This document shows positions 25,775-30,352 of a DNA stretch of 64,000 bases, piece by piece. The DNA comes from Archangium gephyra (GTDB lineage Bacteria > Myxococcota > Myxococcia > Myxococcales > Myxococcaceae): NCBI RefSeq assembly GCF_001027285.1, contig NZ_CP011509.1, positions 1,744,501-1,808,500 on the forward strand. Reading direction: 5' to 3'. The notes under the pieces were generated by a model that did no database searches, had not been told where the DNA came from, and worked only from the letters and a program-made list of their open reading frames with translations. The translations under genes and the position numbers were made by a program. Position 1 is the first letter of the stretch, and every line of letters begins with the position of its first letter.

Positions 25775-27190
<1,416 letters not shown>

Positions 27191-27194
<4 letters not shown>

Positions 27195-27481
27195 TGCCTC
27201 CGCTCTACCCCGGAATGGTCCAACAAGTCCGCAACGAGCGTGGTGTCCTCCAGGTCGCCCACCACCCAGGTTCGCGGCAGGGGGCTGCGCTGGACGAGCG
27301 TCGGCGTGAGCAGGATGTGGTCCTCATCCGCCGAGGCGGGCCGGCCTTCCGCCAGGTCGATGATCTTGAAATCCACCTGGGCGGCCTCGTAGCCGGACAG
27401 AAGGGTCTTCATCTGCCGGAGCGCTCGCAGCGAGGCGGCGGAACGGCCCGCTGTGTAGAGCACCAGCTCGATTCGCGACAT
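27191..27481 (-). CDS. kaiB: Possible internal start giving free KaiB (alternative product)
   Basis: In the same frame as the receiver-KaiB fusion, ATG 27481 is preceded by CAGGAGAGTGCC, an AGGAG core with 6-nt spacing. Starting here gives a 96-residue protein close in length to cyanobacterial KaiB (about 102) and covering exactly the KaiB domain. This is an inference from the ribosome site; the full fusion frame is also open. Confidence 0.5.
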
Positions 27482-27901
27482 GGCACTCTCCTGCGGACCT
27501 TGGCCCTGTGCGGCTGCCCGGGGAGCCGGGGCTCCCAGGAGCTTCAACACCTGGGCCACGATGTGGTCCGTCCCCCGCTGCTTGGAGACGATCTTCAGGC
27601 CCGCGGCATCCTCGACGTGCGTGCTGCCGGTGAAGATCAGCACCTCGGTGCCCTCCAGCAAGCCCGCGGAAGAGGCCTGCTTCAGCATCCACGTCCCCGT
27701 GCCGTCCGGCATGCGGTAGTCGCTGATGACCAGGTTGAACCGGCGGCGCCTCAGCACCTCCAACCCCTCCCGGACGCCACCGGCCGTGGTGACGGCGAAC
27801 CCCGCCAGCTCGAGCGCTCGCCCGAGGAGGTAACGGGCGGCCTCGTCATCGTCTACGCACAGCACTTGTCCGTTGGGCCGGGTTGCTTCGGAGACTCCCA
27901 T
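27191..27901 (-). CDS. Receiver domain fused to a KaiB-like domain
   Basis: A 236-residue protein. Residues 8-125 are a CheY-like receiver: acidic pocket CVDDDE, phospho-Asp61 in LVISDYRMPDG, Thr91 and a late Lys. Residues 141-236 match KaiB: SRIELVLYTAGRSAASLRAL, a DFKIIDLAEG strand, then ILLTPTLVQRSPLPRTWVVG with the conserved cis-Pro region, and VGDLEDT. The pair would let a phosphorelay input act on the KaiC gene product encoded directly downstream. ATG 27901 has no clear ribosome site. Inside the gene, ATG 27481 (Met141) has AGGAG 6 nt upstream, so free KaiB may also be made. Confidence 0.82.
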
Positions 27902-28025
27902 ATAGGGCGAAGATGATACCGGGAATGGCGTCCCGTGCGTGCCTTGCCGTGTTCCGGGCGCGGTGCTAGGGCTGCTCGCCGCAACCCCTCCACCGGCGGC
28001 GGCTCGCGCCGCCACGAGGTTCCAG

Positions 28026-28993: not shown

Positions 28994-30352
28994 ATGCCGG
29001 AGAGCATCGATCTCAGCTCATGGCGTACGGGAGCGGATGTCCACGAGGTGGAGTGGCGCGAGGGCCGCTGGGCGCCCGCCACGGATGTGTCCGAGTCCGC
29101 TGACCAGCTCCTGTTCGAGGTGGAGCTGCCGGGCCTGGTCCAGAAGGACATCGAGCTCACCTTCGCCGGTACGCACCTCGTGCTCGAGGGGGTCCGCCAT
29201 CCCCCCGCGGTGGAGGGGCGGCTGCTGGTGGCGGAGCGCCAGTTCGGTCCCTTCAAGCGGGAGCTGCTCCTTCCCCGGGAGCTCGCGCACGAGCCCGAGG
29301 CGGGCTACCGCGACGGGGTGCTCACCATCCGCTTCGCGAAGCGGGGGCGCATGGAGGGGATGGACACGGAGTCCGTGCCGGCGCAGGGGCAGTGGCCGCC
29401 CATCGACGTGCTGGATACCGGGCACGGGCTGATGCTGCTGGCGGATCTGCCGGGCGTTGCCCAGGCGGCCATCGACGTGCGCTTCGAGGGGCGGACGCTC
29501 ACCCTGCGCGGACGGCGGGAGGTGGAGACGGCGCGCAGGCGCTACTTCCAGTCCGGGCGGCGCGCGGGACAGTTCTTCCGCTCCATCCTGCTGCCCGAGG
29601 GGATGGACGGTGACCGCATTGAAGCCTCCTTCAAGGAGGGCGTGCTGTCCGTGGAGTTGCCGGCGAGCGGGGCCACCTCGCGTCCCCGGAAGATGCTGGG
29701 ACGTCCCTCCCGGAGTCCCTCCAAGGCCGAGGACCCGCTCCAGCAACTGCGCGGAGAACTCGAGGAGCTTCGCGAGCAGCACCAGTCCCTGCGCAACGAG
29801 GTGGATGGCTTCTGGCTGGCGCTCGGGTGTGGACTGCGAATCGCGCAGCTGCCGCTCCACCAACATCTCCCGGTGGAGGTCTCCCTGCGCGACGGCGAGC
29901 CCGCCGTGCAGCGGCAGGTGATGGAGGCGGTGCGGCGGTTCGTGGAGTTCGCCGGGTTCGAGGTCTGGCGGGAGTACCCCTCCGAGAGCGGGCCCTTCCT
30001 CGAGCGGTGGCAGGTGCGGACGCGGCGCAAGGAGAGCCAGCTCGAGCTCCAGCAGCGGGTGCTCCGCATGCAGGAGACGCTGGAGCTGGCCCGCTGGGGC
30101 GCGACGCAGGAGCGGGAGCCCCGGCCCGAGGACTTCCAGAACGCCGGGCATCAGCAGCTTCCGGGGGAGGCCGCCGAGGCCTGGGTGGAGACCGTCTTCA
30201 CGCTCGCCCAGGCCCTGCGCACGGCCGCCGCCGGGGCCTCGCTCCTGCTGGGCACCCTGTCCCTGGAGAAGCAGGAGATGGCCCTCGTCCTGCGGGCCCT
30301 CGGCGAGGAGGAGCTGGCCTCCCGCCTGAGGAGCTGGGCCGCGGCGGACTGA
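28994..30352 (+). CDS. Protein with two Hsp20/alpha-crystallin domains and a C-terminal unknown domain
   Basis: A 452-residue protein. Domain 1 (about 27-120: DQLLFEVELPGLVQKDIELT) and domain 2 (about 135-232: MLLADLPGVAQAAIDVRFEG, ending GVLSVELPAS) are both alpha-crystallin folds. A coiled coil (about 240-275, LRGELEELREQHQSLRNEVD) follows. Then comes an alpha/beta domain (PVEVSLRDGEPAVQRQVMEA, GFEVWREYPSESGPFLERW) and a helical end. Typical Hsp20 proteins have one domain and 140-180 residues. The C-terminal domain recalls small domains seen in bacterial conflict-type NTPase systems, from memory only. No partner gene is adjacent. Confidence 0.75.
   Translation: MPESIDLSSWRTGADVHEVEWREGRWAPATDVSESADQLLFEVELPGLVQKDIELTFAGTHLVLEGVRHPPAVEGRLLVAERQFGPFKRELLLPRELAHEPEAGYRDGVLTIRFAKRGRMEGMDTESVPAQGQWPPIDVLDTGHGLMLLADLPGVAQAAIDVRFEGRTLTLRGRREVETARRRYFQSGRRAGQFFRSILLPEGMDGDRIEASFKEGVLSVELPASGATSRPRKMLGRPSRSPSKAEDPLQQLRGELEELREQHQSLRNEVDGFWLALGCGLRIAQLPLHQHLPVEVSLRDGEPAVQRQVMEAVRRFVEFAGFEVWREYPSESGPFLERWQVRTRRKESQLELQQRVLRMQETLELARWGATQEREPRPEDFQNAGHQQLPGEAAEAWVETVFTLAQALRTAAAGASLLLGTLSLEKQEMALVLRALGEEELASRLRSWAAAD

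Follow-up and report, generated by a model that had tools for sequence, protein, structure and literature searches.

A receiver-KaiB fusion encoded together with its own KaiC in Archangium gephyra

In a 64,000-nucleotide stretch of the Archangium gephyra genome (the window; contig NZ_CP011509.1, positions 1,744,501 to 1,808,500 of the forward strand), a CheY-like receiver domain and a KaiB domain are encoded in one reading frame, and a kaiC gene follows at once. The start codon of kaiC lies within the ATGA overlap that closes the fusion gene. The positions of the genes, domains and motifs are collected in Table 1. Also present in the window, at 28994-30352, is a gene for a 452-aa protein with two tandem HSP20-type Pfam matches, an unusual doubled form of a small heat-shock protein.

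Table 1. Features of the fusion gene and of kaiC (window coordinates)
Feature	Position	Strand	Basis or remark
Receiver-KaiB fusion gene	27191..27901	(-)	236 aa, stop included; translation; both Pfam domains (Response_reg, KaiB) exceed their cut-offs
CheY-like receiver domain, residues 13-122	27536..27865	(-)	PF00072 match at residues 13-100 and aligned residues D17-D19, D61, T91, K107
DYRMP motif with Asp61, predicted phosphorylation site	27707..27721	(-)	D-Y invariant in 7 aligned fusions
Linker, residues 123-140, with variable length and sequence	27482..27535	(-)	Codon alignment with A. violaceum; protein alignment
AGGAG, candidate internal Shine-Dalgarno	27488..27492	(-)	6 nt before ATG 27481; use doubtful
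In-frame internal ATG (Met141), candidate start for a 96-aa KaiB	27479..27481	(-)	Paired with AGGAG at one of the 8 other fusion loci
KaiB domain, residues 141-236 (Pfam match 148-227)	27194..27481	(-)	PF07689; PDB sequence matches are KaiBs; fold match
kaiC, 473 aa	25773..27194	(-)	ATGA overlap with the fusion gene; clade with KaiCs of other fusion loci
KaiC CI segment DLTRPMEGPTHVSGNFDVEGL, region holding the KaiB-binding B-loop	26859..26921	(-)	Shared by all 7 fusion-linked KaiCs; the genome's other KaiCs lack it
KaiC CII motif STIPD, Ser416-Thr417	25935..25949	(-)	Aligned to Ser431-Thr432 of S. elongatus KaiC

How complete are the two fused domains? The receiver matches Pfam Response_reg (PF00072) with 50.9 bits against a cut-off of 30.2, and in the alignment it keeps the full residue set: the acidic pocket D17-D19, the phospho-acceptor D61, T91 and K107. 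The K/D/T/D columns are invariant across seven aligned fusions, a distant one at 42% identity included. The C-terminal boundary of the domain (residue 122) was placed by eye. Two features set this subtype apart: the conserved proline that follows the receiver lysine is missing, the motif reading KQ or KE, and no switch aromatic stands three residues ahead of the lysine. Because of these two losses, phospho-signalling by the receiver could be altered.

The second domain matches PF07689 (KaiB) with 44.8 bits against a cut-off of 27, over profile positions 2-80 of 82. Its best matches by sequence among solved structures are Legionella Lpp1115 KaiB (E 4e-11) and S. elongatus KaiB (7e-11). A profile of the nine fusion-type KaiB domains described below scores 54 bits with KaiB structures and 23 with SasA; a generic thioredoxin identity was considered and rejected, there being no thioredoxin among the matches of this profile. 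The NCBIfam equivalogs for circadian KaiB, TIGR02654 and PRK09301, are missed, with 39-43 bits against cut-offs of 145 and 110. On these scores the domain is a divergent member of the KaiB family, other than the canonical clock KaiB.

KaiB is a protein with two folds, and the KaiB-domain model bears on which of them is adopted. The model of residues 141-236, of fair quality (mean pLDDT 70, alignment of two sequences), has as its top fold matches Legionella KaiB and a fold-switch-stabilised KaiB, with thioredoxins ranking lower; ground-state KaiB structures come far down the ranking (TM about 0.4, rmsd about 11 A). A model of the full-length fusion protein was too poor (mean pLDDT 54) and was discarded. 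In place of the GLDL segment of KaiB, all nine aligned fusion-type domains have DLL. Since the changes G88A and D90R within GLDL favour the switched fold (PMC12618002) and the segment is DLL here, the domain may reside mostly in the thioredoxin-like, KaiC-binding fold. The preliminary description of this DNA, made from the letters alone, had claimed a CheY-like receiver with a phospho-Asp61, a complete KaiB-like domain and an ATGA coupling to kaiC, and all three are borne out. It had also raised the prospect that residues 141-236 would fit a generic thioredoxin fold better than KaiB; KaiB comes first both by profile and by fold.

The co-encoded KaiC passes NCBIfam PRK09302 (434 bits, cut-off 408) and misses the stricter TIGR02655 (360 bits, cut-off 546). 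Fusion-linked KaiCs (n = 7) retain both Walker A motifs, the catalytic Glu pairs, the CI B-loop region and the CII Ser-Thr pair; two ATPase domains with Glu pairs, a B-loop region and a Ser-Thr site are the sequence features expected of a KaiC with KaiB-type regulation. All seven stop short of the A-loop motif, which ordinary KaiCs have. In the tree the seven form one clade with support of 100/100, which adjoins the KaiCs that accompany ordinary KaiB in the phylum and stands apart from the genome's other KaiCs, paralogues flagged for their long branches. A published survey reported the B-loop as missing from the myxobacterial KaiCs examined (PMC11832031); judged by sequence, the fusion-linked clade is an exception.

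Of interest is how these components are distributed within the genome, a single contig of 12,489,432 bp. It has one KaiB, that of the fusion, and among its KaiC paralogues the alignment finds the B-loop region and the Ser-Thr pair kept solely by the fusion-linked one. The sole KaiB is encoded with the sole KaiC to possess both features, and the two make a matched pair. Neither mark of a KaiABC oscillator is present: no KaiA was found in the genome by PF07688, a profile that a very divergent KaiA would escape, and the A-loop tail of KaiC is wanting. Several other KaiC paralogues lie directly beside receiver domains (genome contig near 180000, 3380100, 11068400 and 12285600), and the association of KaiC with receivers is therefore general in this genome, even without KaiB.

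How widespread is the fusion? KaiB matches were found in 18 of 195 genomes of the phylum. Fusion-type domains, defined by at least 128 bits with the fusion-type profile (the phylum's other KaiBs score below 60), occur in nine of the 18: five in Archangium, two in other genera of the family and two in other families of the order. Receiver and KaiB are in one frame in eight of these nine genomes, A. gephyra included. At locus L040 (126-898, minus strand) they are in different frames, the break coinciding with a run of C, while the kaiC there ends after about 15 codons; this represents either a draft-assembly error or a decaying copy. At seven of the nine loci kaiC stands directly behind the fusion with an overlap of a few bases, and the fusion at L039 has no kaiC alongside. 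As they are conserved in related genomes, the fusion and its coupling to kaiC can both be taken as beyond chance. The genes that flank the pair vary between groups (fatty-acid hydroxylase, beta-lactamase-like, globin, TetR and others), and thus the conserved unit is a two-gene cassette. A conserved partner kinase was sought in the neighbourhoods of the fusion loci, and none travels with the cassette.

Beyond the phylum, a sample of 1143 genomes belonging to four other phyla gave KaiB matches in 89, all with 62 bits or less. No same-frame receiver-KaiB was present in about 65 loci fetched from these 89 genomes; the coverage of the four phyla is by sampling and not by census. A scan of genome contigs picked up receiver motifs and returned one true fusion, that of A. 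violaceum Cb vi76. Viral contigs and plasmids scanned with the KaiB domain yielded no relatives, and plasmid matches to the sister-type protein were to receivers only, with at most 75% of the query covered.

In three genomes of Pseudomonadota (L167, L170 and L172) a separate receiver gene is situated just upstream of kaiB, so the partnership of receiver and kaiB occurs elsewhere as two genes. The Kai clusters L008 (34-1470), L170, L172 and L167 each have, adjoining kaiB, a gene that encodes one or two receivers plus a C-terminal helical domain. Such a receiver-plus-helical gene beside kaiB resembles the receiver-KaiA chimera KaiA3, and one case, L008, is in a myxobacterium. A KaiA match was not found by sequence for the receiver-plus-helical proteins, the helical C-terminal domain of L170 included. 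How did the fusion originate? One possible origin is that a receiver-plus-helical gene upstream of kaiB lost its second half. The profile of the fusion's receiver scores 46 bits with the first receiver of L008 and 3 bits with the second.

What might a receiver do on KaiB? The best reading of the domains, residues, operon and clade, together with the lack of a recognisable KaiA and a lone KaiC with the B-loop region, is a KaiA-less KaiBC module in which KaiB carries its own phosphorylation input; we give it about an even chance. The receiver-KaiB gene and its own kaiC would constitute a two-gene cassette, with a single fused protein produced from the former. The KaiB domain, in its predicted thioredoxin-like fold, would dock on its partner KaiC, at the CI ring. 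Receivers pass their phosphorylation state on to attached domains. Phosphorylation of Asp61 by an unlinked histidine kinase would change the readiness of the KaiB domain to bind. Because KaiC has a Ser-Thr phosphosite and ATPase residues and is without an A-loop tail, receiver-KaiB would supply the regulatory input that is given elsewhere by KaiA or by the ATP/ADP ratio. In the KaiA-less system of R. sphaeroides, KaiB binding to CI drives the dephosphorylation of KaiC (PMC10076222). This precedent and the two-gene pairing of receiver and kaiB in Pseudomonadota count in favour of the reading; the altered surroundings of the receiver lysine, the fair quality of the KaiB-domain model, the neighbourhoods with no conserved kinase and the fusion at L039 with its missing kaiC count against it. 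The idea that a phosphorelay is plugged into a Kai-type module outside cyanobacteria had been put forward at the start. It stands as the best reading, in so far as a real KaiB, intact receiver residues and a KaiC with KaiB-response features are all there; binding, phosphorylation, the direction of control, a timer function and the role as a whole are what we infer from them.

Could the signal flow in the reverse direction? The main rival has KaiC controlling the receiver: the KaiB domain would be a docking module as in SasA, KaiC would be the input, and the fusion would report the state of KaiC to a two-component pathway. By binding in one state, KaiC might gather six receivers on its ring or hide them, and so affect their recognition by a kinase or phosphatase. 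The modelled thioredoxin-like fold, as in SasA, and the DLL segment with its bearing on the switched fold are in keeping with such a scheme, as is the fact that a kinase is not co-encoded. However, the domain is much nearer to KaiB than to SasA in sequence, and a receiver with no further output domain requires another reader of its state. Reverse flow seems possible, on the unlikely side.

A different proposal is that the receiver has ceased to be phosphorylated and serves as a structural or dimerising appendage, the protein behaving as an ordinary KaiB. The linker and the loop after the lysine are variable, the Lys-Pro motif has been lost in the subtype and there is no cognate kinase in cis, all of which fit with this. 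A mere appendage needs no phosphorylation residues, but these are invariant over all the aligned fusions, the most divergent one included, and the proposal is considered unlikely.

The preliminary description went further and suggested that one gene gives two products, the full-length receiver-KaiB and a free KaiB of 96 residues that starts at ATG 27481. As a reading of the system, their ratio or competition would set the behaviour of KaiC. The elements themselves are as described: the ATG is in frame and exactly at the domain junction, the AGGAG precedes it with a spacer of 6 nt, and the product would have 96 aa. In the codon alignment, CCGCAGGAGAG.G.CATG is kept in A. violaceum amid a linker otherwise altered by insertions and deletions. 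There is no obvious Shine-Dalgarno at the full-length start in either A. gephyra or A. violaceum, and for this reason that start may be leaderless or weak, a point in favour of the two-product proposal. A TATCAT element is found 7-11 nt before the full-length ATG in both species (A. gephyra 27902-27925; A. violaceum, L033), as in leaderless messages.

Is the internal site conserved more widely? Of the eight other fusion loci it occurs only in that of A. violaceum, the closest relative; the other seven, which include other genera and a more distant genome, do not have an ATG with AGGAG at the junction, and in three congeners a GTG lies one codon away, lacking a well-placed ribosome site. Conservation between A. 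gephyra and A. violaceum is not decisive, since the same stretch has another internal Shine-Dalgarno with ATG that the two species conserve just as well. In the window, 10 of 238 internal ATGs, which belong to 9 of the 43 called genes, are preceded by a 5-nt Shine-Dalgarno at 4-10 nt; because those internal ATGs have sites as good as this one, the site does not clearly exceed chance. The predicted RNA accessibility at 27481 is 0.18, against 0.38 +/- 0.10 for 95 background internal ATGs in the window, and is the lowest of the 96 sites compared; the equivalent A. violaceum site is predicted to be average (0.41). Poorly conserved, common by chance and predicted to be poorly accessible, the internal start lends the two-product half of the proposal little weight, and by the test set out with that proposal, conservation in related myxobacteria, this half appears close to refuted. 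Dual products are accordingly a quite improbable account of how the locus works.

At the speculative end is a larger picture: a KaiA-less timer in a non-photosynthetic, multicellular bacterium, reset by a phosphorelay via KaiB, with the internal start of the two Archangium species that possess it yielding free KaiB from the one message, so that the ratio of switchable to unswitchable KaiB is set. The combination is very improbable.

A KaiB with its own phosphorylation input would bear on a more general question, how signals enter KaiA-less KaiBC systems. Such systems are thought to act as hourglass timers that depend on a cue from outside (PMC10076222). A receiver-bearing KaiB offers a directly testable input point. 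In the multicellular-life-cycle bacteria concerned here, kaiC genes are common and functionally unstudied (PMC11832031). The fusion is a plausible route by which ordinary signalling might reach a clock-like timer in some myxobacteria.

A paper describing a receiver-KaiB fusion was not found in the open-access literature, the part of the literature covered. The arrangement with KaiC is rated as worth a specialist's attention and not as a new kind of system. How does it compare with systems already known? The nearest described is that of the receiver-KaiA chimera KaiA3 (KaiA3-KaiB3-KaiC3; PMC11372060), which is also present in some non-cyanobacteria (PMC11372060). In both cases a receiver with a phosphorylation site is fused to a Kai protein in a kai cluster. 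In KaiA3, however, the receiver is joined to a KaiA domain and KaiB is separate, whereas in A. gephyra the receiver is joined to KaiB, a KaiA is not recognisable and KaiC is without the A-loop tail. The KaiBC-only timer of Rhodobacter sphaeroides (PMC10076222) likewise consists of KaiB and a double-domain KaiC with KaiA missing. Its KaiB is free-standing and in its KaiC an exposed A-loop is accompanied by a long coiled-coil tail, in contrast to the receiver-bearing KaiB of A. gephyra and a KaiC that ends short of the A-loop. SasA also combines a KaiB-like domain of thioredoxin fold, one able to dock on KaiC CI, with a two-component module, but that module is a histidine kinase instead of a receiver, the domain order is reversed and the A. 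gephyra domain is much closer to KaiB. The clusters L167, L170 and L172 of Pseudomonadota share with A. gephyra a receiver immediately upstream of kaiB within a kai cluster; there the two are separate genes, and the cluster adds a receiver-plus-helical protein and a second kaiB.
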